A stretch of 24,197 nt of DNA from a virus, in IMG/VR virus record IMGVR_UViG_3300025525_000044, positions 1 to 24,197 of that record; one strand, written 5' to 3'. Both the position numbers and the translations under genes were made by a program. The notes below the pieces were generated by a model. It ran no database searches and was not told the origin of the DNA. It was given only the letters and a program-made list of their open reading frames with translations. Shown piece by piece: positions 1 to 20,927 of this stretch (positions are counted from its first letter, which is position 1; the number at the start of each line of letters is the position of its first letter).

Positions 1-1299
1 ATGACAAAACGGATCAACTTCACCAGCGAGCGTATAGCCGGCTTCAGATGCCCGAAAGGCAAGCAGCAGGCGATCTACTGGGACGCCAAGGCGCCGGGGC
101 TGGGGCTGCGCGTCACGAAGGCGACGACAAAATCCTACATCTTCGAAACCCGCCTGCACGGCAAGACCCTGCGCATCACCATCGGCGACGTGCGCGCATG
201 GGCGATTGGCAAGGCGCAAACCGAAGCCCGGCGACTGAAAACTCTGACCGACCAGGGCATCGACCCGCGCCTGCTCGAAGTCGAAAAAGCCGCCGAGGCC
301 GAAACCAGGCGCAAGGAAATCGGCCGCCGCGCGACAACCGTTGCCGAGGCATGGGAGGCCTACGTCAAGGCACGCCGTCGCAGATGGAGCGACCGCCATC
401 TGGCCGACCATCGCAAGCTCGCGCATCCCGGCGGCGTAAATGCCGAGAAGGGCGACCGCCTGACCGAACCGGGCGCATTGGCCGCCCTGATGCCCCTGAA
501 ACTGGCCGGGCTTGACGCCGACCGGGTCGAGGCCTGGCTGCGCATCGAGGCGGAGCGGCGCCCGACACAAGCCGCCCTCGCCTATCGGCTGCTGCGCGCC
601 TTCCTCAACTGGTGCGCCGACAAAACCGACTATCGCGGCATCGCTGCCGCCGGCGCCTGCAAGGCCAGCATCGCCAAAGACGTGCTGCCGAAGAAGAACG
701 CCAAGACCGACTGCCTGCAAAAAGAGCAGCTGCCCGCCTGGTTCGCCACCGTACGCGCCATCGGCAACCCGGTCATTGCCGCCTACCTGCAAACCCTGCT
801 GCTGGTCGGTGCGCGCCGGGAGGAACTCGCCGGCCTGCAATGGGACGACATCGACTTCCGCTGGAATGCCCTGACCATCCACGACAAGGTGGAAGGCGAG
901 CGCACCATTCCGCTGACGCCCTATGTCGCTTCGCTGCTGGCTGCCCTGCCGCGCCGGAATGAATGGGTATTCTCAAGCCCCATGGCCGCCTCCGGCCGCC
1001 TGCAGGAACCGAGCATTCAGCATCGCCGGGCCTGCACCGTGGCCGGCATCGGCGTGACCCTGCACGGCCTGCGCCGCAGCTTCGCCAGCCTTGCCGAATG
1101 GACGGAAATGCCCGCCGGCGTGGTGGCGCAAATCATGGGCCACAAGCCGAGCGCCACCGCCGAGAAGCATTACAAGGTGCGCCCCCTCGACCTGCTGCGC
1201 CTCTGGCACGGCAAGTACGAAGCATGGCTTCTCGAACAGGCCGGCATCGCGCAACCCGCCGCAAACGCCGAAAGCCTGCGGCTGGTCGGCGCGGCATGA
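1..1299 (+). CDS. Tyrosine-recombinase integrase (P4-type, DUF4102 N-terminus)
   Basis: This 432-residue protein should catalyse site-specific integration and excision of the element. Residues 1-95 resemble the N-terminal arm-binding domain of P4-type integrases (the APGLGLRVT and TLRITIGD strands). Residues 110-215 form the helical core-binding domain, and 235-400 the catalytic domain. Catalytic residues are visible: Arg272 in GARREEL, His355 and Arg358 in HGLRR, His381 in GHK and the nucleophile Tyr391 in EKHYKV, so the active site looks complete. The ATG is the first base of the window, so its ribosome site cannot be seen and a start further upstream is possible. It lies directly upstream of higBA. 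Given the proposed boundary at 5604, it most likely belongs to the plus-strand element and not to the Mu-like phage. Length and motifs are normal for the family. Confidence 0.95.
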   Translation: MTKRINFTSERIAGFRCPKGKQQAIYWDAKAPGLGLRVTKATTKSYIFETRLHGKTLRITIGDVRAWAIGKAQTEARRLKTLTDQGIDPRLLEVEKAAEAETRRKEIGRRATTVAEAWEAYVKARRRRWSDRHLADHRKLAHPGGVNAEKGDRLTEPGALAALMPLKLAGLDADRVEAWLRIEAERRPTQAALAYRLLRAFLNWCADKTDYRGIAAAGACKASIAKDVLPKKNAKTDCLQKEQLPAWFATVRAIGNPVIAAYLQTLLLVGARREELAGLQWDDIDFRWNALTIHDKVEGERTIPLTPYVASLLAALPRRNEWVFSSPMAASGRLQEPSIQHRRACTVAGIGVTLHGLRRSFASLAEWTEMPAGVVAQIMGHKPSATAEKHYKVRPLDLLRLWHGKYEAWLLEQAGIAQPAANAESLRLVGAA

Positions 1300-1337: not shown

Positions 1338-1616
1338 ATGATCAGAAGCTTCCGTCACAAGGGCATCGAGCGTTTCTTCAAGACGGGATCGAAGGCCGGC
1401 ATACAGGCGCAGCAGGCTAACCGGCTGCGCATCATGCTGACACGATTGGACGTGGCCAACCGCCCCGAAGACATGGACGCGCCGGGATGGGGGCTTCACC
1501 CCCTGAAAGGCAACCTCGCCGGCCATTGGGCCGTTTCGGTAAGCGGCAATTGGCGCATGACCTTCGCCTTCGAAGGCGCCGATGCCGTGCTGGTCGATTA
1601 TCAGGACTACCACTAG
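1338..1616 (+). CDS. higB: HigB-type toxin (RelE superfamily mRNA interferase)
   Basis: This 92-residue protein has the pattern of the HigB / plasmid-maintenance killer family: an N-terminal IRSFRHKGIERFF segment, a central helical region, the conserved GLHPLKGNLAGHWAVSVSGN strand pair and a C-terminal YQDYH. HigB proteins cleave mRNA at the ribosome and are neutralised by HigA. The toxin precedes the antitoxin, the usual order for higBA and the reverse of most toxin-antitoxin operons. The length is normal and nothing looks broken. No ribosome site precedes the ATG, which fits a leaderless transcript from the promoter at 1304-1332. Its role here is probably to stabilise the integrated element. 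Confidence 0.92.
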   Translation: MIRSFRHKGIERFFKTGSKAGIQAQQANRLRIMLTRLDVANRPEDMDAPGWGLHPLKGNLAGHWAVSVSGNWRMTFAFEGADAVLVDYQDYH

Positions 1617-1629
1617 AGGAACCGCAATT

Positions 1630-1914
1630 ATGTCCAGAATGCACAATCCCGCGCACCCCGGCGAAGTGCTGCGCGAATTCCTGCCAGGGAACATGACCGT
1701 TACCGAAGCGGCGCAACGCCTCGGCATTTCGCGCGTCATGCTCTCGCGGGTGCTCAACGGCCGCTCGGCAATGACCGCCGACATGGCCATCCGTGTCGGC
1801 CTGCTCACCCGCACCACGCCGGAATCGTGGCTGACCAACCAGGTGCAATGGGACTTGTGGCAAAGCAGCCGCAAGCCGAAGCCCAAGGTGCAACCGCTGC
1901 AGCGGGCCGCCTGA
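1630..1914 (+). CDS. higA: HigA antitoxin (XRE-family HTH)
   Basis: This 94-residue DNA-binding antitoxin partners HigB. The N-terminal NPAHPGEVLREF signature and an XRE helix-turn-helix (about residues 22-45, containing TEAAQRLGISRVMLSRVLNG) are typical of HigA. The ATG at 1630 is preferred over an upstream in-frame ATG at 1582 for two reasons: AGAGGA at 1615-1620 lies 9 bp before it, and the longer form would run 48 bases into higB. The gap from the higB stop is 13 bases, so the two genes are co-transcribed. HigA should bind HigB and repress the operon at 1312-1330. A basic tail (KPKPK) follows the HTH. Confidence 0.92.
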   Translation: MSRMHNPAHPGEVLREFLPGNMTVTEAAQRLGISRVMLSRVLNGRSAMTADMAIRVGLLTRTTPESWLTNQVQWDLWQSSRKPKPKVQPLQRAA

Positions 1915-3016: not shown

Positions 3017-3086
3017 TTTTCAATGAACCATCAACGCACCGATAACGGCAATCCCGCCAAGGTGCATTTCTCTCAAAGGAGGAATG

Positions 3087-3305
3087 ATGGTTACGGAAAA
3101 CTTCCCCGCATTAGCCGCCGTCGCCAATGGACGCGACACACTACCAACTCACGACGCCGCTGTAGCAATCAACCGCGCCGACCAGACCTTGCGCAAGTGG
3201 GCCTGCCTGGGCAATGGGCCGCTCCGCCCGATCCGCATTAACGGGCGTCTCGCCTGGCGCGTCGCCGACCTTCAAAAGTTGTTACTTGAAGGGAGCGCGC
3301 AATGA
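3087..3305 (+). CDS. Small winged-HTH regulator (AlpA/excisionase-like)
   Basis: This 72-residue protein has a helix-turn-helix at about residues 20-41 (THDAAVAINRADQTLRKWAC), then a short wing (RPIRINGRLAWRV) and a final helix. That is the layout of MerR/AlpA-type excisionases and activators. Such proteins sit before replication genes in P4-like elements and can control both excision and the operon. Two ATG codons are adjacent at 3084 and 3087. AAAGGAGG (3075-3082) ends 1 base before the first and 4 before the second, so 3087 is preferred. Its end overlaps the next ATG by 4 bases (ATGA). Specific function is inferred from fold and position. Confidence 0.75.
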   Translation: MVTENFPALAAVANGRDTLPTHDAAVAINRADQTLRKWACLGNGPLRPIRINGRLAWRVADLQKLLLEGSAQ

Positions 3306-3511
3306 AGCCGCGCAACCATTTCGAAGCCATCCGCGCCGGCGCGTACGATGCGATTGATGACGCCATCCGCAACGCCACCTCCTGCCCTACGGCCGATTTT
3401 TTCTGGGCGGTAAAAGAGGGCGTGCGCGAAGCGGTTGAAAGGGCGATTTTAATTCATGGCGATGATGCCCTGAGAGCGTTAAGCAATTTTGCGACGAAGG
3501 GCGACAAATGA
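3302..3511 (+). CDS. Small hypothetical protein
   Basis: This 69-residue protein is predicted to be mostly helical and mildly acidic, without membrane segments. It contains one Cys and a repeated Ala/Asp/Glu pattern (AYDAIDDAIRNA, VREAVERAIL). No family is recognised. It overlaps the HTH gene upstream and the ATPase gene downstream by ATGA at each end, so the three genes are probably translationally coupled. This argues that it is a real gene with a role in replication or its control. Confidence 0.65.
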   Translation: MKPRNHFEAIRAGAYDAIDDAIRNATSCPTADFFWAVKEGVREAVERAILIHGDDALRALSNFATKGDK

Positions 3512-4950
3512 CCGCTACCGCCCTCGCTCCCGGCCTGCATGGGCCGATCATGCCCCCAGCCGTCGCAATCGCGCGCGGCATCGCCCGCAACGTCCGCCAC
3601 CCAAAATTCGGCCGTGGCCGAGTGCTTCGAGCCGATGATCGCGTCGCCCGCATCGAGTTTGCCGACCATGGCGTCAAGGATATGTCTCTCGAAGTCGCAG
3701 CCCTTGAAGTTGTTGATGCGACTGATGCTGATTGCCTCAAATCCCCCACAGCAAGCGCAAAGCCCAAGCCAAAGGCATTGCCCTATGTCGCGGCGAAAAA
3801 CCCGCCAGCGGCCGATTCTGCCGGTCGTATCGCCTACCGCCGCGCATCGGACATTCAGGCCAAGCCGATCAACTGGCTATGGCAGGGCCGCATAGCACGC
3901 GGTAAGGTCACCATGGTGGCAGGCAATCCCGGACTTGGTAAGTCGCAAGTGACAGGGGCGGACATGGCCGCCACAGTTACGACTGGCGGCGCATGGCCAG
4001 ACGGGAGCTGCTGCGAACGCGGCAACGTCGCGCTCCTCTCGGCGGAGGATGACCCGGAGGATACGGGGCGCCCCCGGCTGGAAGCGGCCGGCGCTGACCT
4101 GTCGCGGGTATTCGTTCTCGATGCCGTGGTGGAAGCCTTCAATGCCGAGGGCGGAGAGATCAAGCGCGCCTTCAATCTCAAAACCGACCTTGCCCGGCTC
4201 GGGCGCATGCTCGACGAAATCGGCGGCGCTGCCATGATCGTTATCGACCCGATAACCGCCTATCTCGGAGAGACCGACAGCCACAAGAACGCCGAGATAC
4301 GCGCGCTGCTGTCGCCGTTGTCTGATCTGGCGGCGAAGCATGGCGCGGCCGTCGTTTGTGTCTCGCACCTGAATAAATCCGCTGGTGGCGAAGCACTGAT
4401 GCGCGTTACAGGAAGTCTTGCCTTCGTCGCGGCGTCGCGCGCTGCCTTCATTGTGGCGAAAGACCCGGAGAACGACGCGCGCCGGCTATTTCTGCCGATG
4501 AAGAACAACATTGGCAACGACCGAAGCGGGCTCGCCTTCAAGGTTGAATCGGCGCAAGTGAAAAGCCCGGCGGGACTGATTGAGACTTCGCGCATTGTAT
4601 GGGAGCCCGATCCCGTGGTCATGACCGCCGACGAGGCCATGCAACCCCAAGGCGACCCGGAAGAACGAAGCGCCATGGACGATGCTCGGCAATTCCTGCT
4701 CGGCCTGCTGGCCGATGGCCCGGTCAGGGCGGGGCAGATCAAATCCGATGCCGACGGGGCCGGCTTCAATTGGCGAACCATTCAAAGGGCGGCTGATAGG
4801 CTGAATATCGAACGCCACAAGGACGGCATGCGCGGCGGCTGGACGTGGAAACTACCCCCGAAGATGACAAGCACCCCCGAAGATGACAGACATAAAACGG
4901 TGTCGCCTTCGGGAAGTCTTGTCACCTTCGGGACGGATGGGGAGGATTGA
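3508..4950 (+). CDS. RepA-like AAA_25/RecA-fold ATPase with N-terminal Tudor-like domain
   Basis: This 480-residue ATPase resembles the RepA/AAA_25 helicase-loader or hexameric helicase group found in phages and mobile elements. It has Walker A AGNPGLGKS (138-146, Lys145), Walker B AMIVIDPI (242-249, Asp247) and a sensor-like SHLNK (286-290). Residues 390-447 look like a winged helix. Unusually, residues 28-70 match the C-terminal Tudor-like domain of UvrD/PcrA (VRHPKFGRGRVL, then IEFADHGVK and an ALEVV end), a module that contacts RNA polymerase. A flexible Pro/Lys linker joins the domains. The last 30 residues are low-complexity and are encoded by inverted repeats (4857-4932). The ATG overlaps the upstream stop. 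A likely role is replication of the excised element. A purely regulatory role is possible. Confidence 0.88.
   Translation: MTATALAPGLHGPIMPPAVAIARGIARNVRHPKFGRGRVLRADDRVARIEFADHGVKDMSLEVAALEVVDATDADCLKSPTASAKPKPKALPYVAAKNPPAADSAGRIAYRRASDIQAKPINWLWQGRIARGKVTMVAGNPGLGKSQVTGADMAATVTTGGAWPDGSCCERGNVALLSAEDDPEDTGRPRLEAAGADLSRVFVLDAVVEAFNAEGGEIKRAFNLKTDLARLGRMLDEIGGAAMIVIDPITAYLGETDSHKNAEIRALLSPLSDLAAKHGAAVVCVSHLNKSAGGEALMRVTGSLAFVAASRAAFIVAKDPENDARRLFLPMKNNIGNDRSGLAFKVESAQVKSPAGLIETSRIVWEPDPVVMTADEAMQPQGDPEERSAMDDARQFLLGLLADGPVRAGQIKSDADGAGFNWRTIQRAADRLNIERHKDGMRGGWTWKLPPKMTSTPEDDRHKTVSPSGSLVTFGTDGED
4857..4932 (+). repeat. Four 13-bp repeats, two in each orientation
   Basis: CCCGAAGATGACA occurs at 4857-4869 and 4876-4888. 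Inverted near-copies follow: TGTCGCCTTCGGG at 4901-4913 and TGTCACCTTCGGG at 4920-4932. The two direct copies lie in a longer exact 16-bp repeat (4854, 4873) with a 19-bp period; the inverted copies are also 19 bp apart. Copies 2 and 3 can pair, and copies 1 and 4 can pair outside them, giving nested hairpins. They encode the low-complexity tail of the ATPase. They may be iteron-like origin sites or an RNA structure. Confidence 0.7.
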
Positions 4951-4952
4951 GC

Positions 4953-5363
4953 GTGCGGAAAGTTGACCGCCCCGTTCCCTTCCCGTGGCCGTCAAGCGCC
5001 TATCGTGACGAATTCAAACGCCTGCGCCATCTCGGGCACTCGACATTCTGGGCACGCCATCTAATTCGCGACGCGAACCACAGGGCCCGCCTGTTCCCCC
5101 TTAAAGGCGAGAAGTGCGAAGCCTATGCCCGAAGTACCGGCAAGCCCTGCCAGGCCCCTGCAATGACCAATGGCCGCTGCAAGCTGCATGGTGGATTCTC
5201 GACCGGCCCAACGACGCCGGAAGGGAAAGCCAAGGCCTTGGCCGTCATCGGCCAGAAACCGTTTTCCATGGAGCGCACGCCCGGCAAACGCGGCAAGATT
5301 AGGCTCGAATCTCTCCTGCCCCCGCGCGCGTCATGGAGAGCGAAAAGCGCCAATAGCCGCTAA
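4953..5363 (+). CDS. HGGxSTGP-motif protein with Cys/His cluster
   Basis: This 136-residue protein of unknown function is from a family common in prophages and integrative elements. The recognisable part (about residues 52-98) is C-x10-C-x9-C-x2-H (Cys55, Cys66, Cys76, His79) followed by HGGFSTGPTTPEGKAKAL. The Cys/His spacing suggests a small metal-binding knuckle. The N-terminus carries basic and aromatic residues, and the C-terminus is basic and probably disordered. A GTG start at 4953 is chosen because GGAGG (4941-4945) lies 7 bases before it. A TTG at 4947 overlapping the ATPase stop is the alternative but sits too close to that site. Co-transcription with the ATPase is likely. Confidence 0.75.
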   Translation: MRKVDRPVPFPWPSSAYRDEFKRLRHLGHSTFWARHLIRDANHRARLFPLKGEKCEAYARSTGKPCQAPAMTNGRCKLHGGFSTGPTTPEGKAKALAVIGQKPFSMERTPGKRGKIRLESLLPPRASWRAKSANSR

Positions 5364-5530
5364 CCGCACCCGGCGGGGGTTCCGTACTGTTTGCCGCTGC
5401 GCTTTCGAGATACCCCCCGGGGCATGCGTTGCCGTACCCGTCGGTTTCCTTCTACTCTGCACCCGCCAAGCCGATGATGCCCCCGGCACCCCCTCGGCGA
5501 GGGAAGGGGCATAGCGCAATTTCACGCTGA
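5360..5530 (+). other. Ash-like reading frame without a start codon
   Basis: The frame reads 56 codons with the pattern I associate with the phage P4 Ash family: a GSVLFAAALSRYPPGHALP segment, then PSVSFYSAPAKPMMPPAP. It opens after a TAG at 5354-5356 and contains no ATG, GTG or TTG before residue 24, so a normal start is not visible. It sits directly downstream of the HGG gene in the -1 frame. Either the conserved feature is the nucleotide sequence (a structured RNA), or this is the decayed end of a gene. CCCTC-GGC-GAGGG (5491-5503) is a small hairpin inside it. From here to 5603 I see no other gene. Confidence 0.4.
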
Positions 5531-5610
5531 TCTTCGACCCCCTCCCCCCCCGGCCCTTCCTTGCCCTGAAAGTCAGCCCCCACAGGACGGCGAGTCGCAC
5601 GAATGTAAGG

Positions 5611-5651
5611 CCGCGCGCGTTTTGGCACTATTTTGCGCGACTTTTGGCACT
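5611..5651 (-). repeat. Two 22-bp-period direct repeats at the putative Mu-like right end
   Basis: GCGCGnnTTTTGGCACT occurs at 5613-5629 and 5635-5651, exactly 22 bp apart, with 15 of 17 positions identical. They start about 10 bp inside a TG (5604) that could be the terminal dinucleotide; the phage strand leaving the element would end in CA. Adjacent MuA-binding sites in Mu have a similar 22-bp layout. The five bases outside, ACGAA (5599-5603), would be one copy of the target duplication. Confidence 0.5.
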
Positions 5652-5756
5652 GCCGCCAAGCCTTTCCACGGCCACCTGGAAGTAATGCTCGCTAGCCTCG
5701 ATTCCGACGAACTGTTTGCCCTGCTGTAACGCAGCCGCGCCGGTGGTCGCCGACCA
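5628..5756 (-). pseudogene. C-terminal remnant of a DNA N6/N4 methyltransferase
   Basis: The minus-strand frame ending at TAG 5628-5630 reads SATTGAAALQQGKQFVGIE, then ASEHYFQVAVERL. This matches the motif I end and C-terminal helix of beta-class adenine or cytosine-N4 methyltransferases (usual form: GSGTTG-x-AAL-x-x-G-x-x-FIGIE, then YF-x-x-A-x-x-RL). Only about 42 residues remain. Upstream in the same frame the similarity stops near 5756 and a stop codon lies at 5796-5798. The catalytic DPPY/NPPY motif is absent, so the product cannot be active. It lies beside the phage right end, where Mu has its modification gene. Confidence 0.55.
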
Positions 5757-5865: not shown

Positions 5866-5957
5866 GGTTTCCCCTCTTCCCCAAAGTGGATGCAGGCGCC
5901 GACCAGCGGCCCAAGAAGGGCGCTGGCGACGCACCAGGCGATGAACAGCCAGATCAC
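5862..5957 (-). CDS. Tiny single-pass membrane protein (31 aa)
   Basis: The product begins MIWLFIAWCVASALLGPLVG and ends GEEGKP. It has one hydrophobic segment (residues 2-23) and a short charged tail. The GTG start at 5957 overlaps the stop of the fibre-assembly gene as GTGA, and its own stop overlaps the next ATG as ATGA. Such double coupling is unlikely by chance. It could be a small holin-like or regulatory membrane peptide, but nothing in the sequence decides. Confidence 0.5.
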   Translation of the reverse strand: MIWLFIAWCVASALLGPLVGACIHFGEEGKP

Positions 5958-6556
5958 GGCTGCGCCTCATAGACAGCCGGCCAGCCGGCGCGGATGTCGT
6001 AGGCGGCCATCAGCTCGACGTCGGTCATCGCAGCCAGCGCGGCGCGGTGCTGCTCGGCGCGCATGAAGATCGCGGCCTCATGAATCTCGAAGGCGGTAAT
6101 CACCTCGCGGATTTTCCCGGCCGTGAGCGGCACGAAGGTGCCGGCCATCGTCTTCCACTGCACCTGCTGGCCGGCCACCAGGTAGGGGTCGGCGTCGGCC
6201 TGCGCGGCCGAGCGGTTGGCCATGCGTTCCCACTGCGTGCGCGACTTGATGTCGTTGTGGAACCAGTCGGCGCCGGCCTGGCAGCCGGACTCCTGGAGCC
6301 GGTCTCGATGCGCCTTGATTTGCCCCCACAGCATGTCGCGCACCTGGGCGACTGGCTTCGGCTCCGACGTGCCATCGCTGTGGTTGTAGTAGTAACGCTC
6401 GTCCGCCAACACCGGCTCAGGCTCCTCGGTGATGCCGTGCTGCGCGCGGGTGTCCGCATCTCGCAGGCTTCCGGCCGGGATGGTGATGGCGTCGTCACCC
6501 TCGCCGATGGTGAGGTCGATGTCGATGCGGATGGGTTGGCCGTTCAGTTTGAACAT
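5954..6556 (-). CDS. Tail fibre assembly protein, DUF4376-like
   Basis: This 200-residue protein probably helps fold or attach the tail fibres encoded just upstream. Residues 70-190 match the DUF4376 pattern: MLWGQIKAHRDRLQESG, then DWFHNDIKSRTQWERMA and an AGKIREVITAFEIHEAAIF helix. That domain is common in Mu-, P2- and lambda-like fibre-assembly proteins. The N-terminal 60 residues form a short beta-rich part (FKLNGQPIRIDIDL). The gap to the large fibre gene is 12 bases. The family is well known, but the precise chaperone role is inferred from position. Confidence 0.82.
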   Translation of the reverse strand: MFKLNGQPIRIDIDLTIGEGDDAITIPAGSLRDADTRAQHGITEEPEPVLADERYYYNHSDGTSEPKPVAQVRDMLWGQIKAHRDRLQESGCQAGADWFHNDIKSRTQWERMANRSAAQADADPYLVAGQQVQWKTMAGTFVPLTAGKIREVITAFEIHEAAIFMRAEQHRAALAAMTDVELMAAYDIRAGWPAVYEAQP

Positions 6557-6568: not shown

Positions 6569-8869
6569 TTATCTGGCGTTGGCATAGCGGAAAGGGAAAG
6601 CGGCGAACAGCAGGAACCATGTCACGTATCCGCTGTAGTTGGCGTTGTCAGCAGAGGCTCCACTTCTCAACTTCACGCCATTAGAAACATGATCGGCCGC
6701 TGGGATGTTGCTCTGGTCGCCGTCTGTTCTGTTCATCCACATGCTTTGCGATACGACGTTGTATTGCGCTCGCGCGTTGTCGAGCGTGGCCCAGTAAGAG
6801 CCGACAGCATTCGACTTGAACAGCGAAAATGCTGGGAGAAAATCTGCCGGATCAAACGGCCCATCGTTTGATCCGTTGCCGTTGTGCTTGCCCAACTTGC
6901 ACAATCCGGCCGTTTCGGCGATGGAGATCCATCGATAGGTTCCAGACGGAAGGGCTGCCGCCACCGTGAATCCAGAAGCCGTGATCGTGCTGATCGACGA
7001 GTCGGTTGCCTCTGCCCCTGACTGCTCCAGATACAAGAGCTTTCCAGCCGTCAGGTCTGGGTGATAGACGTACCAACTACCGCCGGACTCGTTTCTGAGG
7101 ATGACCAACTTTCTAGCGTTACCAAGTCCGTCGGTCACCACATCAGCGACGCCGTTTACGTGCGCCAAGCGTCCCATAGCTACGCCATTTGCGGCAGCGA
7201 CTTTGATGGCGTAGCCAACGTAGCTTGTGCCGGCAAGCGCCGGGAAAGCGGCCTTGGCTGCTGTGCCTGACGAGTCAAGGTAGTTTCCCGCGTCGTCGGA
7301 AAACTGCCAGCGCCAACCTTCCGCAGCGTCGCGTCGCTTATAGATGCGGATCCAGTCTGACCATGAAGAGGCGGCGGACAACGTGGCCTGGATATTCGCA
7401 CCGGAGTCGGCGCGTGCCACGAAGACGGAATCGCTCTTCGTAAAACTCGGATAAGGCAGGTTCTTCGCGCACAGCGTCTTGTAGCCAGACTGCGGGTAAC
7501 TGAACGGCCGTTGGCCGAAGTTCACGATGCTCTTCGGCGAATTGTAGTCATCGGTGTTGGCCGCAAAGAATAGGAGGTCGGAGGTAAAGAGTGCCGGTGC
7601 GTTGATGGCGCCCTGCGATACGCCGTTCTTCCAGAACGTCACCGTCTGGGCGACAGGATCACACCCGACGCCGATTATGTCGCCGGCGTCCCAGGTGGCA
7701 CCGTAGGCGCTTGTGGCGCCCATCACGCGCTTGTTGCCGTTCTTGTCATAGCTGACGCCAGATGACGCCGCCCAGAGCTGGTTGGAATAGCTCACCGCAC
7801 TTACGACCCCCACCTGAACAATCGTCGGGGCGGACGTGTACTGATACTCGAAGAACACCGGGCGGTCTGTTGGCAGCGCAAGCGTGCTACGGCAGACGGT
7901 GTTTGACACCAGATGCGAACCCTGCACTTCAAGGCCCCCGCTAATGACGGCGCCAGACCCGACAGGATGAACAATGCTATTTAGGACGGCATAGTTCGTC
8001 GTCGGTGTATCAAGCATTGAGTCATAGGTTGCACCAGCCGTCAGGCTTACGTTCGTCGCCGTCCAGTTGTTTCCCGTCGTATCGGTATCGGACTGGCTAC
8101 GGTCGTAACCGAGCGTCGTCAATGAGGTCGTGTCATCGAATGGCAGGAAGAATCCGTTCGTGCCCCAGCCGTTCCTGGAACCACCGCCGGCCGCGACGGC
8201 CGAGCGGATGGCCTCCTTTGATTTCGGTCGCCACTGGCCGGTACGCGGATGGACTAAACCAAAGGACGTGGGTGCCATTGCCTTGCCATCGACGAAGAGC
8301 ACGTGCGAAAGAAGGCCATCAAACCACGCCGAGGTAGAAGCGGAAAGCGCGCCGAGCCGATGCAGGACATTTGAGTTAACCAGGCCGGGGGTGTTCTGTG
8401 CGGGGTAGGTTGGCGATCCAGCGGACTGTCTCTCGCTGTTGACGAACACGCGCATCCGCTCGGATGGCGTCGGATTCGTTGTGTCCCAGACGATCAGGAC
8501 GTCGTAGTGACTACCTGGATCACAGAACTTGCTGGCTGTGAAGACATTGCCCACTGTGGCACCGCCGGCATCTCCCAGGAAGAACTGTAGCTCGCCGGTA
8601 CCACCAATCAGAGACACGGAGTGCTGACTCACGGCGTCGATGTCGTTGCCAATGCCGAATATCCGCAGAGCATTTGCCAAGTTGGCACGCTTGCACTTGA
8701 ACCCAAGCGTCCATGTGGTCAGGCTGCCGACAGCGATAAAGGTGCGACTCCAGTAGGCGCCAGCCGAACGGCGATTGCGCACCGAGCGCTCGACTTTGCC
8801 ATACTCGTCGAGGGGATCGCCCCCGCCGCACATCATGACCGGGTTAGGGCTGCCCGGTGCGATCATCAT
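6569..8869 (-). CDS. Large tail fibre protein with LamG-like and SPRY domains
   Basis: This 766-residue protein is predicted to be a receptor-binding fibre or spike. Residues 30-205 look like a concanavalin/LamG-type sandwich (AYWSRTFIAVG to WFDGLLSHVLFVDG). Residues 335-455 match a SPRY domain (VSYDKNGNKR, then DIIGVGCDPVAQTVTFWKNG and IVNFGQRPFSY). The C-terminal 290 residues are beta-rich with Gly and Ser and are likely a second carbohydrate-facing region. The ATG at 8869 has GGAGA 6 bases upstream and overlaps the previous stop by 4 bases. A 320-residue in-frame extension upstream is only the shadow of the neighbouring fibre gene. Both domains suggest binding to surface glycans; the receptor is unknown. 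Confidence 0.82.
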   Translation of the reverse strand: MMIAPGSPNPVMMCGGGDPLDEYGKVERSVRNRRSAGAYWSRTFIAVGSLTTWTLGFKCKRANLANALRIFGIGNDIDAVSQHSVSLIGGTGELQFFLGDAGGATVGNVFTASKFCDPGSHYDVLIVWDTTNPTPSERMRVFVNSERQSAGSPTYPAQNTPGLVNSNVLHRLGALSASTSAWFDGLLSHVLFVDGKAMAPTSFGLVHPRTGQWRPKSKEAIRSAVAAGGGSRNGWGTNGFFLPFDDTTSLTTLGYDRSQSDTDTTGNNWTATNVSLTAGATYDSMLDTPTTNYAVLNSIVHPVGSGAVISGGLEVQGSHLVSNTVCRSTLALPTDRPVFFEYQYTSAPTIVQVGVVSAVSYSNQLWAASSGVSYDKNGNKRVMGATSAYGATWDAGDIIGVGCDPVAQTVTFWKNGVSQGAINAPALFTSDLLFFAANTDDYNSPKSIVNFGQRPFSYPQSGYKTLCAKNLPYPSFTKSDSVFVARADSGANIQATLSAASSWSDWIRIYKRRDAAEGWRWQFSDDAGNYLDSSGTAAKAAFPALAGTSYVGYAIKVAAANGVAMGRLAHVNGVADVVTDGLGNARKLVILRNESGGSWYVYHPDLTAGKLLYLEQSGAEATDSSISTITASGFTVAAALPSGTYRWISIAETAGLCKLGKHNGNGSNDGPFDPADFLPAFSLFKSNAVGSYWATLDNARAQYNVVSQSMWMNRTDGDQSNIPAADHVSNGVKLRSGASADNANYSGYVTWFLLFAAFPFRYANAR

Positions 8870-9762
8870 TTGCTGTCTCCCTGCGCACCGATCCAGATGC
8901 GAGTCGCGCTCTCGACGTAGTAGCCGAGCAGATCCACGGCACCAGCGACGGCGGTGAGTGCGGGCAGCGCGCCGCTGCTGCTCTTCCAGTAGCTGCCGTA
9001 GGCGATGGTGCGCGGCGTGCTGTCGTTGATGATGCGGATGACGCCGGACTGGCCGGGAGCGATGTTGCTCGGGTTGGCCAGGGTGATGTTGCCGGTGAGC
9101 GTGCCGTCGAAGTTGTTGGCCGTGGCGAGATCGAGCGTCACCGTGCCGGTGGTGGCCGGCAGCGCACCGGGCGTGCCGATCTGCGCTTTGGTGAAGCTGT
9201 TCTTCTGGTCGGTGCGCACGCCCAGGGCATCGATGTCGACGAAGAGCGTGGTGGCGCTCTTGGCGATGCCAATCGACATGCCGTCGGCCGGCGCGGTGTC
9301 GGTAACGGCACCGGCGGTACTGGCATCGAGGTAGTAACGCGCCCCCGGCGTCAGGCCGGTAAATAGCGGGCATTCGCCGTAGAGGTAGACCTTGCTGTTG
9401 GTGACGTCGGCGATACCCACCGCGCGGTTGTTCGCGGTGCCGTCGGCGATCGCTTCGTCGAAGCGGCTGTTGCCGCTGTCCCAGCGCACCGCCTCGCCAT
9501 TGGAGACGCTGGCCTCGAAGGTGGCGTTGTTGATGACCACCGCCTTCTGCGCGCCGGTGACCATCGCCGTGATGGCCTGACGGAGCTGGGTGTAATTGCC
9601 CTTGGTCAGCGGAATACCTGCCGCCTCGACGACATCGCAGATGTTTTCCTGCACATCGTTGAGCCAGTCGTCGGTAACGGTCGTGGATGGGGTTGCCGTG
9701 GCCGGGCTGCCCTCGGTAAAGAGGTTTCCCGGTGCGGCGGTGGCATGATCGATTCTGTGCAT
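8866..9762 (-). CDS. Tail fibre / baseplate-proximal fibre protein
   Basis: This 298-residue protein begins MHRIDHATAAPGNLFTEGSP and continues with VTDDWLNDVQENIC. This N-terminus is typical of prophage fibre proteins that attach to the baseplate. The central part carries Gly/Thr-rich beta repeats (GTVTLDLATANNFDGTLTG, NITLANPSNIAPGQSG) seen in phage stalk proteins, and the end forms a compact cap (LLGYYVESATRIWIGA). It follows gp48 after 9 bases and overlaps the SPRY fibre gene by ATGA. It may form the connector between baseplate and the larger receptor-binding fibre, in the position of Mu S (gp49). Confidence 0.82.
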   Translation of the reverse strand: MHRIDHATAAPGNLFTEGSPATATPSTTVTDDWLNDVQENICDVVEAAGIPLTKGNYTQLRQAITAMVTGAQKAVVINNATFEASVSNGEAVRWDSGNSRFDEAIADGTANNRAVGIADVTNSKVYLYGECPLFTGLTPGARYYLDASTAGAVTDTAPADGMSIGIAKSATTLFVDIDALGVRTDQKNSFTKAQIGTPGALPATTGTVTLDLATANNFDGTLTGNITLANPSNIAPGQSGVIRIINDSTPRTIAYGSYWKSSSGALPALTAVAGAVDLLGYYVESATRIWIGAQGDSK

Positions 9763-9771: not shown

Positions 9772-10368
9772 TTAGGCGTAAGCAAACAGGACGTGGGTAT
9801 GGGCCGGCTTGAGTCGGTTGATGACGCATTCGAGCAACTCGTTGCCCCAGCTGCGAAGCGGTTCGCCGGCAGACGACCGGCCGGCCGCGAATTCGACGAT
9901 GCTGGCCTCGGGTGCATTGACCTGCCAGACGAATGTCCAGCCGTCGTTGCTCAAGGCATCGCCGGCGGCGCTGTGGCCAGCCTGGAACGGGCTGAATTCC
10001 GTGATCGTGATGGTGTAACCGAGGCTGGCTGCCAGAGCGATGTAGTAGGCGGCGCTCCGCCCACCGATGGTGGTGAGCTTGGCGACCAGCGCGGCGCGGC
10101 GTTGCGCCGTGGTTTGTGTTCCGGCAAGTGCCTCGACGCAGGGATCGGGCAGGCCGGCAACGCGCTCCCAGTCGGCGAGCAGCTCGGCCGTGGTGCGCGG
10201 GTCGGCTTCCTCGATCAGATCGGCGGCGCGGCCGTCGACGCGTGCCAGCTCATCCGCCCAGGCCAGCAGCAGATTAGTGAGCGCGGCATCCGCCTGGCGC
10301 GGCCAGGCGAAGCCCTGCGGCAGCAGCGCCTGGAGCTGGGCGAGGTAGGCGGTAGCCGTCAGAGCCAT
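9772..10368 (-). CDS. Mu gp48-like tail protein (DUF2313/YmfQ)
   Basis: This 198-residue protein of the YmfQ/DUF2313 family is located between baseplate J (gp47) and the fibres in Mu-like phages. Visible family features are the N-terminal YLAQLQALLPQGFAWPR, a central DWERVAGLPDPCVE and a C-terminal CVINRLKPAHTHVLF. It probably links the baseplate wedge to the fibres. Its ATG overlaps the upstream gene by 10 bases. The length is normal for the family. Confidence 0.9.
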   Translation of the reverse strand: MALTATAYLAQLQALLPQGFAWPRQADAALTNLLLAWADELARVDGRAADLIEEADPRTTAELLADWERVAGLPDPCVEALAGTQTTAQRRAALVAKLTTIGGRSAAYYIALAASLGYTITITEFSPFQAGHSAAGDALSNDGWTFVWQVNAPEASIVEFAAGRSSAGEPLRSWGNELLECVINRLKPAHTHVLFAYA

Positions 10369-11411
10369 GTGATCGTCCCGAAGGTAGCCATCTCGCCGAC
10401 GGCATGGGTGACGTTCGCGGCTGGCACGGTAAGGACGTGATCGTTTTCGCCGGAAGCCAGCGAGATCGCTTCGCGGATGTGCGATAACAGGATCGTTGCG
10501 CCCGGCTCGGATTCGCGCAGCAGCAGGTCGCGCAACTCGGCCTCGACGGCGGCGCGGATCGCGGCCGTGTCCGGCGCGAGGTCGATGGTGAAGTTGAGCG
10601 GCACGGCGATGGGGGCGACCACCGTGACATCCGCCGTCACCGGCCGCACGCTGTCGATGTATTCCTGCACCGCCGTCACCTCGCCAGCATCCGGGATCGG
10701 GCTGGCATCGTCGTCGCGCACGAAGCGAACGGTGACGGTGCCGAGGCCAAGCTCGGCCGGATATACCCAGGCACGCGTGACGCCCGGCACTTCGAGTGCC
10801 CAGGCAACGTAGTCATAACTTGCACCACCGTGCGGCGGCTGCTGGATGCGGGCCAACAGGCGGGCGCGCAGATCCTCGTCGGCCTCGATGTCGGCACCGC
10901 CGGTTAGGCCCCCGACAGCCACCGTGGCCGTGGCCGAGACGCCGTCGATCGGCGTGTCGAAACTCAGCAACGAGGCAGCCGATGCGTTACCGGCCTGGCC
11001 GCCATCAACGGCAGTAACGGCAATCGTGGCCGTGCCGCCGGAGATCGTTGCCTCGGCGTCGGTTGTGTATTGCGCGCCGTCAGAGCGTGCCAGGGTCGAG
11101 TCCGCCGGCACGATGGCGCCGTTGGCGCCGGTGACCGTGACGCTGCCGACTGCGGGCGAAGCGGCCTTGCGCGCCACGCCCCAGATCGAGGCGTGGCGTT
11201 CCAGCATGTCGCCGTCGGCGGTATCGATGATGACCTGGCGCGCGATCCACTCCAGGTAGCCGTAGAGGCCATGCGCAGCACCCGAATGCACGCGGGCCAG
11301 CACGTTGAGATTGGAGCGACGCAGACGGGCATCCGCGCCGGGCAGGCGCGTCTCGATGTCCGCTTCGGCGCGGTTGATCAGGGTCGGCAGATCGGGGCGG
11401 GAGAATGGCAT
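10359..11411 (-). CDS. Baseplate protein J-like (Mu gp47)
   Basis: This 350-residue baseplate wedge protein (Baseplate_J family) begins MPFSRPDLPTLINRAEADIE. It has the family's beta-rich middle (AVGSVTVTGANGAIVPADS), and a GLTGGADIEADEDLRARLL segment precedes the C-terminal domain. The ATG at 11411 is chosen because AGGAAG lies 6 bases upstream and the family usually starts with this motif; a longer open frame extends to 11567 over gp46. It assembles with gp46 and gp48 into the wedge around the hub. Confidence 0.93.
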   Translation of the reverse strand: MPFSRPDLPTLINRAEADIETRLPGADARLRRSNLNVLARVHSGAAHGLYGYLEWIARQVIIDTADGDMLERHASIWGVARKAASPAVGSVTVTGANGAIVPADSTLARSDGAQYTTDAEATISGGTATIAVTAVDGGQAGNASAASLLSFDTPIDGVSATATVAVGGLTGGADIEADEDLRARLLARIQQPPHGGASYDYVAWALEVPGVTRAWVYPAELGLGTVTVRFVRDDDASPIPDAGEVTAVQEYIDSVRPVTADVTVVAPIAVPLNFTIDLAPDTAAIRAAVEAELRDLLLRESEPGATILLSHIREAISLASGENDHVLTVPAANVTHAVGEMATFGTITWL

Positions 11412-11433
11412 GCTGGTCTTCCTATAGCGAAGC

Positions 11434-11883
11434 CTAGAGGTGGCTCCAAAGGGCCTCGAAGCGATAGCGGACGGGCTGGCCGTTCGGCCGCGTGATCGCG
11501 ATCGCGAGGCCGAGCATCTCGTCGCGGGGAATGAAGGCATCGACCTCGACGCGGCTGGCGATGCCATCCTTGATCAGCCAGCCCAGCGCCTCTTCGGCGT
11601 AGCCCTTGGCCTCGGCCAGCACGGACGGCAGCTGCTTGCGGCGGCCGAGCAGCCACAGGCGCGAGCCGAAGCGGTCCCCTGTGATGGCCGGAAACGAATC
11701 GCCCCACCAGCCGCGCACGTCGCCGGGCGACGGCGTTACATCGCTCTCGCGGGCGCGCGCATCCGTGAACAGCGAGAGAATGACAGCGGTGTCGAGACCG
11801 TCGTCGCCGGCCAGGCCGGGCGACTGGAGGAGCCATTCGGCGCCGCGCTCGAAGCTGATGAAGTGGGTGCGGATGTCGGTCAT
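11434..11883 (-). CDS. Phage GP46 family baseplate protein (Mu W-like)
   Basis: This 149-residue protein contains the GP46 family signature: DDGLDTAVILSLFTDARA, then RGWWGDSF and the LAEAKGYAEEALGWLIKDG region. It is a wedge or inner baseplate component in Mu-like myophages, functionally comparable to gpW/gp25-type proteins. It lies 3 bases after gp45 and 22 before gp47. Length and content are normal. Confidence 0.93.
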   Translation of the reverse strand: MTDIRTHFISFERGAEWLLQSPGLAGDDGLDTAVILSLFTDARARESDVTPSPGDVRGWWGDSFPAITGDRFGSRLWLLGRRKQLPSVLAEAKGYAEEALGWLIKDGIASRVEVDAFIPRDEMLGLAIAITRPNGQPVRYRFEALWSHL

Positions 11884-11886
11884 GGC

Positions 11887-12447
11887 TTACATCTTCTGGA
11901 TCGGATCGTCGGTCGGGCCACCGCCGTCGTTCTCCGGGTGCGTGTGAATGTTGTAGGTCTGGCGCATGCCTTCCATCGTCACGCCGTCGCTGTCGCAGCG
12001 GTCCTCGATCTCGCCGGTCACTTCGAGCAAAGGCGTCTCCATGCGAACTTTAGGTGTGTTGGTGATCGTGATCGGCAGACCGGCGCCGTCGATGATGATG
12101 CCGCTACGCGTCAGGTGTACCTTCTGACCGAGGTCATCGTAGAGCGCCACCTCGCCGCCGGCGAGCGCCTTCAATCGATAGCGCCGGTCGTCGGCGACGA
12201 TGACCACACCGTGGTCGCGACTGCCGCCCAGGGCGAGATAGATGCCCTCGGCGCCGGGCAGCGGCACCGAGGTGAAGCCGTACTGCTGCACACGGTCGAC
12301 GTTGTCGCACACCTCGCCATCGAGCAGCTTGACCTGTAGGCCCTGCATCCTGGTGGCGTCGTCGATCAGCGTGAGGATCGCCCGCGCCGCCATCAGGCGG
12401 ATGCGGCGGGCCAGCGGCGCCATCGCCTTGTATATCTCCCTGCTCAT
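11887..12447 (-). CDS. Baseplate assembly / tail spike protein V (Mu gp45-like)
   Basis: This 186-residue protein should form the trimeric membrane-piercing spike at the tail tip. The N-terminal half forms an OB-like fold (QVKLLDGEVCDNVDRVQQYG to GGSRDHGVVIVADD). The C-terminal half is a beta-helix that ends in YNIHTHPENDGG. His168 and His170 fit the HxH pair that binds iron at the tip of P2-type spikes. The ATG at 12447 has a G-run 5 bases upstream; a GTG at 12459 is an alternative. It lies directly after the hub gene. Confidence 0.92.
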   Translation of the reverse strand: MSREIYKAMAPLARRIRLMAARAILTLIDDATRMQGLQVKLLDGEVCDNVDRVQQYGFTSVPLPGAEGIYLALGGSRDHGVVIVADDRRYRLKALAGGEVALYDDLGQKVHLTRSGIIIDGAGLPITITNTPKVRMETPLLEVTGEIEDRCDSDGVTMEGMRQTYNIHTHPENDGGGPTDDPIQKM

Positions 12448-12466
12448 GACAGCCCCCACGCGCGCA

Positions 12467-13588
12467 TCACAGCGCGCTCCAGTCGTCGTTCGCCTTCTGT
12501 TTCTTTTCCTTCGCCTCCTTGGCGTTGATTTTCCCGAAGAGCTTCGAGCTGCCGATGCCGCTGATCAGATCGAAGGCTTCGCGGCGGGCGATCGACAAGG
12601 CCGTGCGGGTGCCGCCGTCGTCGAGCGTGTGCATGCAGCCGACGATCAGCATTTCCGCCTCCTTTAGATACAGCAGCGGCGACGTGACGGTGACCAGTGT
12701 GTTCGGCTGCCACAGCTTGCCGGCACCGTCCGTCCAGCCCTGCACGGTGATCGAGCCGCGCAGGCCGCGCCCCATGCGTACATTCTTTTCCCACTCGGCG
12801 CGGTCGCGAAAGCGGGTCTTGTTGCCGTGATCATCAGCCAGAACGATGCGCGGGCGGTAGCGGGTGATCGCCTCATCCGTCACGGTTGCCGCCGGGGCGA
12901 TGTGGCTGGCCGCCGCGTCGCCATCGAGGGCGATCTTGTCGTGTCCCTTGACGGTATAGATCGAGAAACGATCCTTCCAACTAAACGTCCCGCGCGCGGA
13001 TAGGATGTTCTGGCCTTCCACCAGCGCCGTTTCACCACGCACCTTGCCCGCCCGCGTAATGACCAGGTTGCCCTCGCCGTCAGCGATCAGCAGCACGGCC
13101 TTGAGGCGGGCAGCGCGCTCGATGCACTCGAAAGCGGTTTCGCCCGGCTCGATCTTGAAGCTGGGGAACGGATCTCCGACGTCGGTTTCCACCTTGACCT
13201 TGATCTTGAACGGTGCGCAAAGATCGGCGGCGATGCGATCCAGCGTCGCATTCGTCCATTGCCCGGTCTTGTGGATCGCCGAACAATCGACCAGATCGCC
13301 GGTGGCATCGCGCCCGCGCACAGAAATCCGGTGGGACTGCCGATCATAGGTCGGCTCGGCATCGTCCACATAGCCGGTGATGACGGTTTCGCCGTCGAGC
13401 TTGAGCGAGCACTGCTCGCCAGGTCGGATCGGCCGACTGGTGGATTGCCCCGGCCAGCGCTCTGTCACCTCCAGATCGAAGCTGTTGGCCACCTGCTCGA
13501 TGGAACGCGTTACAGAGACACGCTGCCAGCCGCCGTAAATCGCGGTGCCGACGTAGAGTTCTGCGCGACCAAGCATCTGCTCGTTCAT
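12467..13588 (-). CDS. Baseplate hub protein (Mu P/gp44-like, late-control D type)
   Basis: This 373-residue baseplate hub is homologous to Mu gp44 and to P2 gpD. The N-terminal beta domains contain the family's WQRVSVTRSIEQVANSFDLE and VITGYVDDAEPTYD segments. The middle has the FECIERAARLKAVLLIADG helix-strand, and the late part has KLWQPNTLVTVTSPLLYLKE. The C-terminus is lysine-rich (KEAKEKKQK). The ATG overlaps the gp43 stop as ATGA. The hub joins the tail tube to the spike encoded next. Confidence 0.93.
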   Translation of the reverse strand: MNEQMLGRAELYVGTAIYGGWQRVSVTRSIEQVANSFDLEVTERWPGQSTSRPIRPGEQCSLKLDGETVITGYVDDAEPTYDRQSHRISVRGRDATGDLVDCSAIHKTGQWTNATLDRIAADLCAPFKIKVKVETDVGDPFPSFKIEPGETAFECIERAARLKAVLLIADGEGNLVITRAGKVRGETALVEGQNILSARGTFSWKDRFSIYTVKGHDKIALDGDAAASHIAPAATVTDEAITRYRPRIVLADDHGNKTRFRDRAEWEKNVRMGRGLRGSITVQGWTDGAGKLWQPNTLVTVTSPLLYLKEAEMLIVGCMHTLDDGGTRTALSIARREAFDLISGIGSSKLFGKINAKEAKEKKQKANDDWSAL

Positions 13589-14823
13589 GCCAGCGCCTCC
13601 AGCCCAATGCCGCCGGGGACGAAGCCAGGATGACGGACGAGGATGGGATTGCGCGCCACGATCTCGGCCTCACGCGTTGCATCACCGAAAGCGCGGTAGG
13701 CCACCACCAGGGCCGGCAGCGTGGCCGGCATCGAGATCGTCACCAGGCGGGGAAGATCGGCGCCGCGTGCGGTGATGTCGCGCACCACGGCGGCACGCAG
13801 ATCCATCAGCGCGTTGTAGGTGGTGGCCGAAGCCGTGGCAGCCGCATCCTCCAGAGCATCGGCGAGCTGCTCGCGCAGCGCGACGGCCTGCTGGTAGGTG
13901 ATGCGGGGAGCGCTGGCGGTTGCGGGCGCCTTGAAGTCGAGTCGAGCCACTGCGCGGGCCGCCTCGATCACTGCCGCACGTTGCGCCAGCGACACGATAG
14001 CCGTGCGGTTGGTTGCCTGCGCACGGCGCGCAGGAGTCGTTAGCGGAACCGGCGGGCGCGACGTGCCGTAGCCGAAGAACTTCGCCAGCGAGGTGAAGGC
14101 ATCGGCCGGCCGCAGCACCGCGTTGCGCAGTCCGGAGACCAGGCCGAGCACCTGCACGGCCAGTGTCCGGGGCGCCAGAATCAGCGACGACAGCGACGAC
14201 GAAAAGCGCGAGACCTCGCCGATGAATTCGCCGACCACGGTCAGATCGGGCATCACGCCGGCGCGCGCGGCTTCGATAGCAGCCGTAGCGTCGGAGAGCA
14301 AGGCCATCGCATCGGTCGCCGTGAATTCCGGCAGCCCATCGATACTGAACTCTTCGGCGAACTCGTCGGCCACCGCCTCGGTTGCCACATCCGCCTGCGC
14401 ATCCACCACCGCTGCCGTGTTTGTCTCGGCCGACGGCTGGAGGTTCTCTGCCGTTTCGGTGAAGCGAAGCGTGAAGCGCGCCACGCCGCCCTCATCGACC
14501 AGCGACTCGACGAATCGGAAGGGCGCCACCTGTGCGACATTGAGACGCCCCAGCGTCGGGTGCACCAACTCGCCGACGCCGGGCTTCTTGAGCGCATCGC
14601 GCAGGGCATCGCGGGCCTTGAAGTAGTCGTCGCCGATGACGAAGGCTTCCAGGCTGAACTCCCCGGCCTTGCGCCCCATGTCCTCGACAAAGGGTTCATC
14701 GCGCAGCGGGTACTCATGCAGCACGCCGCGCCGGCCTTCTTCGGTATCCGCGCTGCGAACATAGAACGGCACGCCACGGAAGCTGGCCCGCTGGAGTTGC
14801 TTGCGCCAGGCAGCCTGATTCAT
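13585..14823 (-). CDS. DNA circularisation protein family (Mu N/gp43-like)
   Basis: This 412-residue protein has the DNA_circ_N domain in residues 1-120: WRKQLQRASFRGVPFYV, then RRGVLHEYPLRDEPFVEDMG and FVIGDDYFKARDALRDAL. In spite of the family name, the Mu gp43 equivalent is a tail/baseplate protein needed for tail assembly. Residues 150-400 are Ala-rich and mostly helical. It overlaps the tape measure by ATGA and the hub by ATGA, so the three genes are coupled. Length is close to that of Mu relatives. Confidence 0.92.
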   Translation of the reverse strand: MNQAAWRKQLQRASFRGVPFYVRSADTEEGRRGVLHEYPLRDEPFVEDMGRKAGEFSLEAFVIGDDYFKARDALRDALKKPGVGELVHPTLGRLNVAQVAPFRFVESLVDEGGVARFTLRFTETAENLQPSAETNTAAVVDAQADVATEAVADEFAEEFSIDGLPEFTATDAMALLSDATAAIEAARAGVMPDLTVVGEFIGEVSRFSSSLSSLILAPRTLAVQVLGLVSGLRNAVLRPADAFTSLAKFFGYGTSRPPVPLTTPARRAQATNRTAIVSLAQRAAVIEAARAVARLDFKAPATASAPRITYQQAVALREQLADALEDAAATASATTYNALMDLRAAVVRDITARGADLPRLVTISMPATLPALVVAYRAFGDATREAEIVARNPILVRHPGFVPGGIGLEALA

Positions 14824-16604: not shown

Positions 16605-16618
16605 GCTATGCTGATCCT

Positions 16619-16810
16619 ATGGAAACGCTGAAATCACTGTTCATCTGGGCCGTCCTGATCCTGGTGCTTTACGCCACCGGGGAAGTGATTGCCGCCGACG
16701 GGTGGCCGGCCGGCGGCGTTTTCCTGCTGGTGGTGCTCGTCTTCGCTGCCCTCGTCAGCGGCATTAGCGATCTCCTGACCCTGCCCTTCAAGAAGCGTTC
16801 TGACGGTTGA
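16619..16810 (+). CDS. Two-helix membrane protein encoded antisense to the tail operon
   Basis: This 63-residue protein has two hydrophobic segments: residues 7-25 (IWAVLILVLYATGEVIAA) and 30-52 (AGGVFLLVVLVFAALVSG), followed by a basic tail (PFKKRSDG). It occupies the only larger gap (16605-16787) of the tail operon and runs against it. The minus-strand frames there have no protein-like content, so the membrane pattern is likely the real coding signal. No clear ribosome site or promoter is seen before 16619; an in-frame ATG at 16595 is an alternative. A lysogeny-expressed membrane moron, for instance in superinfection exclusion, is one possibility. Confidence 0.5.
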   Translation: METLKSLFIWAVLILVLYATGEVIAADGWPAGGVFLLVVLVFAALVSGISDLLTLPFKKRSDG

Positions 16811-16931
16811 GCCGCACCGCCTGGCGGTGCCAGAACAGCAGCTCCTCGGTCTCCATCGCCCAGAGTTCCGACGGCTGAAAATGGAACGCCTGGGCAAGGT
16901 CGCCCATCACGTCTTCCCAGTTCCGGGGAAT
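16788..16931 (-). CDS. Tail chaperone extension reached by -1 frameshift (GpE-like)
   Basis: This 47-codon frame has no start of its own. It begins where the gp41 frame crosses the slippery run and ends at TGA 16788-16790. It reads IPRNWEDVMGDLAQAFHF, then QPSELWAMETEELLFWHRQA. This resembles the P2 GpE family (D-x-A-x-x-F-x-x-x-P-x-E-L-x-x-M-x-x-x-E-L-x-x-W). The fused product would be 82 residues from frame 0 plus 47, or 129 in total. Such G/GT-type pairs recruit tail tube protein to the tape measure. Confidence 0.75.
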   Translation of the reverse strand: MPRNWEDVMGDLAQAFHFQPSELWAMETEELLFWHRQAVRLNRQNAS

Positions 16932-17176
16932 CCCCCCAAAAAACCGCCCACCGCCTCCAGCACGCGCGGCACATCGTCGACGTCCAGGTTGTCCAGCGCG
17001 GCGGCCGGGAGATTCGCCAGGCCAGCCGCGAAGTCCAGCATCATGGCGAACGGAAACTCCATGCTTTTCAGCGGACGGAAGTCCTTCGCCGTCGGCCGGC
17101 GCAGCACCAGCTTCTCGATCTTCTCGCCGCCGAACTCGATGGGATGCTTGAGGGTGATTTCAGTAACGCCGTTCAT
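16907..17176 (-). CDS. Tail assembly chaperone, short form (Mu gp41-like)
   Basis: This 89-residue protein starts MNGVTEITLKHPIEFGGEKIEKLVLRRP in the typical gp41/tail-assembly pattern and continues with AKDFRPLKSME. It lies between tube and tape measure, where long-tailed phages keep a chaperone pair made by frameshifting. The last 7 residues come from the frame-0 read-out after the slippery site. GAGGAG precedes the ATG by 8 bases and overlaps the end of the tube gene. Confidence 0.88.
   Translation of the reverse strand: MNGVTEITLKHPIEFGGEKIEKLVLRRPTAKDFRPLKSMEFPFAMMLDFAAGLANLPAAALDNLDVDDVPRVLEAVGGFLGGFPGTGKT
16931..16943 (-). promoter_or_regulatory. Programmed -1 frameshift site (tandem slippery heptamers)
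   Basis: Read on the minus strand, T TTT TTG GGG GGA contains two heptamers in the correct phase for the gp41 frame: TTTTTTG (16943-16937) and GGGGGGA (16937-16931). A -1 slip gives direct entry into the GpE-like frame, whereas frame 0 ends 8 codons later. No stable downstream hairpin was worked out. Confidence 0.75.
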
Positions 17177-17178
17177 GC

Positions 17179-20918: not shown

Positions 20919-20927
20919 GACCGATCC

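Follow-up and report, generated by a model that had tools for sequence, protein, structure and literature searches.

Evidence that a Mu-like prophage ends beside a separate integrase-bearing element within one virus record

Gene content of the window

The window, by which we refer to the entire stretch of 24,197 nucleotides analyzed here, carries two sets of genes on opposite strands: all the genes of a plus-strand integrative element lie below position 5364, and all the Mu-like genes, which are on the minus strand, lie above position 5604. The features considered are as follows.

1-1299, plus strand: tyrosine integrase with Arm-DNA-bind_3 and Phage_integrase domains (PF00589, 3.8e-14; PF13356, 1.2e-9; PHROG 1)
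1338-1914, plus strand: HigB toxin and HigA antitoxin genes (PF05015, 7.5e-19; PF01381, 3.1e-6)
2013-2888, 3084-3305 and 3302-3511, plus strand: small open reading frames, no family match for the two scanned
3508-4950, plus strand: AAA_25 primase/helicase-like replication protein (PF13481, 8.5e-33)
4947-5363, plus strand: HGGxSTG-domain protein (NF041373, 1.3e-14)
5599-5603, no strand: candidate target duplication ACGAA (CGAA, 5600-5603, if 4 bp long), directly outside the terminus
5604-5610, minus strand: very probable prophage right terminus, TGTAAGG on the plus strand (phage 3' end ...CCTTACA on the minus strand)
5613-5629, plus strand: R1, outer putative transposase-binding site, GCGCGCGTTTTGGCACT
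5635-5651, plus strand: R2, inner putative transposase-binding site, GCGCGACTTTTGGCACT
5628-5753, minus strand: 3' remnant of an N6/N4 DNA methylase gene, a right-end accessory gene (97% to positions 127-276 of locus L047, then a jump to L047 position 1540)
5954-6556, minus strand: tail-fibre assembly-type protein, DUF4376 (PF14301, 2.2e-16; PHROG 2837, tail)
6569-9762, minus strand: tail-fibre genes, with a DUF7483/SPRY-bearing part (6569-8839; PF24299, PF00622) and an upstream fibre/collar open reading frame, the rest being open reading frames only
9772-14823, minus strand: Mu-type baseplate genes, starting at 9772 (wedge subunit), 10359 (gpJ-like), 11434 (gp46-like), 11887 (gp45-like open reading frame), 12467 (gpP-like hub) and 13585 (gpN/DNA-circularisation-like)
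14820-19023, minus strand: tape measure (from 14820), tail tube (from 17179) and gpL-like contractile sheath (from 17545) (PF10145, PF04984; PHROG 185)
19945-24197, minus strand: head-tail connector genes (from 19945 and 20418) and an F-like minor head gene, of which only the end is present, running off the record
21181-22260, minus strand: major head protein, within this interval
22700-23731, minus strand: Mu I-type protease

Mu-type head and tail genes are accordingly present in the window, and the contractile tail sheath (17545-19023; PHROG 165, 2.4e-163) is 36.9% identical to gpL of Mu. The record covers the right part of the prophage, with the left end, the transposase region, and the position of a second ACGAA all lying beyond it. 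The plus-strand side, for its part, has a tyrosine integrase at one end together with a replication gene.

The first-pass annotation had described a minus-strand Mu-like series ending at 5604, with every plus-strand integrative gene on the other side. That arrangement holds for the position of all the genes, but the last reading frame of the series is not intact, in that the methylase gene was truncated by a 1.26-kb deletion at 7-bp TCGCCGA repeats, with about 40 C-terminal codons remaining. The intact gene is found in a relative (L022, 151-909, minus strand; PF01555, 4e-26); and in the relatives the methylase gene extends into the right end and has its stop codon between R1 and R2, as does the remnant. 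R2 is therefore coding sequence for the C-terminus of the remnant in the window and part of the methylase coding sequence in the relatives.

The right terminus and its repeats

R1 and R2 contain two exact direct copies of GCGCGnnTTTTGGCACT whose starts are 22 bp apart, exactly as the earlier reading of the sequence had it, and no further copy with up to 3 mismatches is present in the window. When up to 3 mismatches were allowed, the 2 matches in the window compared with 1.63 expected, and an exact 10-mer repeated at +22, which was encountered once in the window, was also present at least once in 8 of 200 windows simulated under a first-order Markov model; the repeat pair by itself is only moderately unusual as a chance occurrence. 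Its significance stems rather from the recurrence elsewhere of TGTAA, a GC-rich spacer, and the repeats as a set, with the DNA outside the TGT differing. The same annotation had likened the 22-bp spacing to that of adjacent transposase sites at a Mu end, which likeness is borne out by the self-match of the Mu right end, whose peak is at offset 22: the best self-match at that offset was 19/26 for Mu, 16/26 for the window, and 13/26 for DMS3.

The pattern TTTTGGCACT-N12-TTTTGGCACT taken alone is not phage-specific, since it also matches unrelated DNA such as Clostridium/Lacrimispora promoters. It occurs there at loci L011, L015, L017-L019, L024, L027, L028, L035-L040, L044, and L046, in which setting it resembles a LytTR/AgrA-type operator without connection to the phage. 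The repeats of the window might then be regulatory operators (LytTR-type direct repeats with a 12-bp spacer) instead of transposase sites, a proposal in whose favor it can be adduced that, in Clostridium/Lacrimispora, that 10-N12-10 pattern precedes agrB-like and response-regulator genes. In the phage set, however, the pattern keeps a fixed distance from the TGT, a mirror-image arrangement exists at the opposite end, and it is at the TGT that the outer DNA begins to differ; the position of the terminus contradicts the operator proposal, which we regard as scarcely credible.

The terminus and the left end in relatives

The repeat pair was searched for in about 85,000 genomes and 2.9 million viral contigs, the latter of which were also scanned for the terminus pattern. 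About 17 other records had the same right terminus: the TGTAA, the GC-rich spacer, and the repeats were conserved across the phage set, whereas the bases outside the TGT varied, as the differing flanks of an element inserted at many unrelated sites do (the flanks common to L005 and L007, and to L128 and L131, mean that those pairs are not independent). The homology of the window to two near-complete relatives, contigs of 42,262 and 41,556 bp that share 93-96% identity with the window in their J, gp48, and sheath proteins, begins exactly at 5604, which position corresponds to 127 in both. The identification of TGTAAGG at 5604 as a Mu-like right end is thus upheld by a terminus common to the relatives, an outer DNA that differs, and a homology starting at that very base. 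Just inside the end, most of the better-matched right-end loci have gp48, J, gp46, gp45, P, and N in the same minus-strand order; L016, L020, L054, L057, L129, and L130 gave no match to the window proteins within the stretch covered.

As had been predicted, the left terminus in the relatives is an inverted TGT that carries the repeat in further copies and has a transposase gene as its neighbor. That terminus reads TGTGGGG...TTTGGCAC (TGTGGGG-N11-TTGGCAC), with TTGGCAC at +18, an offset equal to that at the right end, and usually with more copies near +100 and +153. Inverted 5'-TGT/CA-3' termini accordingly mark the phage-host boundary, the right one in the window and both in the relatives, and each end has several repeats that are putative transposase-binding sites, which at the right end follow the 22-bp register. 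The pair TGTGGGG-N11-TTGGCAC (left) and TGTA-N5-GCG-N5-TTTGGCA (right) is diagnostic, and with it the prophages of this widespread transposable group can be delimited exactly.

A PHROG 310 transposase with a Mu-transpos_C domain adjoins the left end in G001 and G045. The prophage G045 is complete, measures about 41.2 kb, and comes from a genome sampled in the family of G006 (a Rhodocyclaceae MAG); chromosomal LysR-type and dehydrogenase genes lie outside it, and its right end agrees with that of the window in all of the outermost 24 bases. Its transposase (PHROG 310, 1.2e-167; rve and Mu-transpos_C) is followed by a MuB-like ATPase (PHROG 296) and, further in, by a Mu-type portal gene (Portal_Mu). 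The relatives thus possess the DDE transposase A (of Mu/D3112 type) and MuB-like ATPase of a region that, for the prophage of the window, lies beyond the record; they have Mu-type genes for the head and the contractile tail as well. The Mu-transposase profile PF02914 gave no match anywhere, the controls included, and being uninformative was replaced by PHROG 310 and PF09299.

Certain individual loci had peculiarities of their own. The late regions of G001 and G003 are about 92% identical and their right ends near-identical, while their transposases are only about 32% identical: the transposition module was swapped and the end sequence kept. In G014 (L199, 2246-4097) the transposase gene is apparently split, with the N-terminal part on the plus strand and the catalytic part inverted on the minus, which configuration is either an invertible segment or an assembly error. 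The left phage terminus of G017 (L136, 209-301) lies in a tandem 69-bp duplication that creates two successive TGTGGGG ends; and a 6-kb element in G252 (L197, C227:1900-8400) with both phage termini, an intact 5-bp duplication GTGGT, and no more than a few head genes is an internally deleted prophage remnant.

The plus-strand element

Relatives of the AAA_25 protein, with identities of up to 48%, were present in 32 of the 399 genomes sampled from the family of G006. Two tRNA-targeted elements, L172 and L174, resemble the plus-strand side of the window in their AAA_25 proteins (43-48% identical), and neither carries Mu genes. L172 is a stand-alone element with an integrase 57% identical to that of the window plus an AAA_25 gene, having a 57-bp att repeat at a tRNA-Ala; L174 has AAA_25 followed by HGGxSTG (51% identical) as in the window, and an 18-bp att repeat at a tRNA-Thr. 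As to the window itself, its att sites are either beyond the record or unrecognised: the window contains no tRNA gene, and its positions 5301-5650 and 1-60, when searched for an attR, shared no 12-mer with the tRNA genes of the homologous elements. Since the phage starts 240 bp after HGGxSTG in the window, whereas the downstream att repeat of L174 is located about 1.06 kb after that gene, the phage likely inserted inside, and not beside, the integrative element, as far as these distances indicate.

A search of plasmid DNA with the flank returned mainly HigBA matches. Among the viral contigs, which we searched for an empty site through close relatives of the window AAA_25, none of the latter was found, nor was the outer flank CACAGGACGGCGAGTCGCACGAA present in any of them.

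Two elements in one record

With high confidence, we interpret position 5604 as the right terminus of a Mu-like prophage beside a separate integrase element, the two gene sets being neighbors by insertion only. The principal competing explanation, that of one hybrid temperate phage combining integration by a tyrosine integrase with a Mu-type tail operon, draws on the presence of both gene sets in a single 24-kb virus record, and on the existence of contractile-tail phages, such as the Bordetella phage PY223, with Mu-type late genes and no annotated transposase. Such a phage is nevertheless difficult to reconcile with a homology that stops exactly at 5604, with relatives that have inverted termini and a transposase, with an integrase that is unmatched outside the end in all the right-end loci examined, and with integrase/AAA_25 elements devoid of Mu genes. 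The hybrid was therefore rejected as highly improbable on the grounds of the sharp homology boundary and of the lack of linkage in the relatives; a conserved integrase-to-tail unit, which by the first-pass annotation would have told against its own reading, is seen neither in the right-end loci nor in the integrase/AAA_25 elements, so that its description of two elements and not one hybrid phage stands, and the apparent combination of an integrase and a Mu tail is settled as such.

Another explanation would be that the junction comes from packaged phage DNA or from an assembly chimera, with the 5.6-kb flank consisting of packaged host DNA and not of the surroundings of a chromosomal prophage. 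Mu-like virions do carry heterogeneous host DNA, up to 2 kb at the right end in D3112 (PMC4378225), and the two ends of G003 have unrelated host flanks; yet the flank in the window is at least 5.6 kb, which length would exceed the reported right-end host DNA, and the cutting of the record at a gene start would imply a longer parent contig with host DNA. We consider this origin unlikely, if less so than the hybrid.

As to why the two elements of the preferred interpretation share a record, the record starts at the first base of the integrase ATG, and geNomad moves the edge of a provirus outward to an integrase lying within 10 kb (PMC11324519). Most simply, the record starts at the integrase because provirus-calling software extended the edge to that nearby gene; and an edge extension of the geNomad type would be the reason for the attachment of the element to the phage record. 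Provirus-boundary software can in this manner give rise to spurious linkages where an integrase lies close to a transposable phage.

Comparison with known transposable phages

The window phage shares with Mu the late gene set (gpL sheath, gpP, gpN, I protease, and gp46/47/48-type baseplate) and, at the right end, adjacent transposase sites in a 22-bp register, but the right end of Mu, TGAAGCGGCGCACGAAAAACGCG, differs from that of the window, so that the end sequences are not of the Mu type (Muvirus); a further difference is the PHROG 310-type transposase carried by the relatives of the window phage. The termini of DMS3, in contrast, TGTGGGGAGGTGACTGTTTTGACAC at the left (TGTGGGGAGGTGACTG...) and TGTAGCGCGGCGCGAAATTTGGCGC at the right (TGTAGCGCGGCGCG...), match the format of the window phage family, and the DMS3 transposase is 43-48% identical to those of the relatives G058, G190, and G259. 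The D3112 group has 22-bp putative transposase sites at both ends with 5'-TGT termini, and the tails of D3112-type phages are long, flexible, and non-contractile (PMC4378225). D3112 and DMS3 (Casadabanvirus) are thus set apart by a non-contractile tail from the window phage, whose tail is contractile and of the Mu type, with no long siphovirus tail; moreover, in the published scheme for the D3112 group R1 is inverted relative to R2, whereas in the window the two are direct repeats. The window phage has the Casadabanvirus end format, yet we do not count it among the members of that group; judged by its genes and ends, it combines a D3112-type end format with a Mu-type contractile tail. The Burkholderia phage KS10 has Mu-type contractile-tail genes along with a transposase for which 30% identity to that of D3112 has been reported, as well as four 15-nt putative sites and no reported flanking direct repeats (PMC2628397); the likeness considered here is that of gene content (contractile-tail genes plus transposase).

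Insertion and target duplications

By analogy with Mu, the transposase would bind R1 and R2 along with matching left-end sites and pair both ends, nick at the 3' CA of each TGT...ACA terminus, and join those ends to staggered cuts in the target, which joining would leave a target duplication of 4-5 bp. This prophage copy presumably has a matching left end. The target was, or adjoined, an integrative element of the tRNA type (tyrosine integrase, HigBA, AAA_25, HGGxSTG), and before the insertion would have read ...GTCGCACGAA|..., with the duplicated bases in one copy.

Among the 14 records with both ends, 7 had a 5-bp duplication and 4 a 4-bp one, and the remaining 3 (G003, G017, and G430) had none. 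The short duplication expected at the ends of such a phage is thus present in 11 two-ended relatives (loci L134-L142 and L186-L197). The 5-bp duplications were in G058, G190, G259, G045, G252, G020, and G027 (GCGGC, GTGGT, CCGGC, GGCCA, GTGGT, CTTAA, and GGAGG), and the 4-bp ones in G138, G001, G014, and G022 (CCTG, GGCG, CTAC, and GACC). Since the relatives exhibit both lengths, the duplication in the window is either ACGAA or CGAA, with ACGAA, the earlier suggestion, remaining a reasonable guess.

The lengths may be related to the transposases. All the members of the DMS3 clade (G058, G190, G259, G045, G027, and G020, this last typed from a gene segment) have 5 bp, and all those of the Gregale clade (G001, G138, and G014, the latter likewise typed from a gene segment) have 4 bp, while the transposase of G022, with 4 bp, forms a long branch close to the DMS3 side; the two clades use nearly the same right-end sequence. 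That the duplication length follows the transposase clade (DMS3-like 5 bp in 6/6 typed, Gregale-like 4 bp in 3/3 typed) is a proposition which, with so small numbers, we hold to be evenly balanced. The 4-bp set could not be extended, as the transposase relatives in the viral contigs were without one or both recognisable ends. The published target duplications measure 5 bp in Mu and 6 bp in B3 (PMC8705779), beside which values a 4-bp stagger in a Mu-type transposase, if true, would stand; the testable question that arises is that of 4- versus 5-bp target cuts by related Mu-type transposases. Apart from this 4-bp subgroup, which is mildly new, the biology is ordinary and well resolved.

The 4-bp reading in G001 is backed, in a comparison of flanks, by the uninterrupted site in the left flank of G003, whose insertion is 11 bp away. 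The left ends of G003 (L047-L049) and G001 (L050-L052), which belong to separate records, are situated at that 11-bp distance within the same intergenic region, MFQVRIHGRGGQG..., which is bounded by a tRNA-like 3' end and a porG-like gene and is a possible insertion hot spot.
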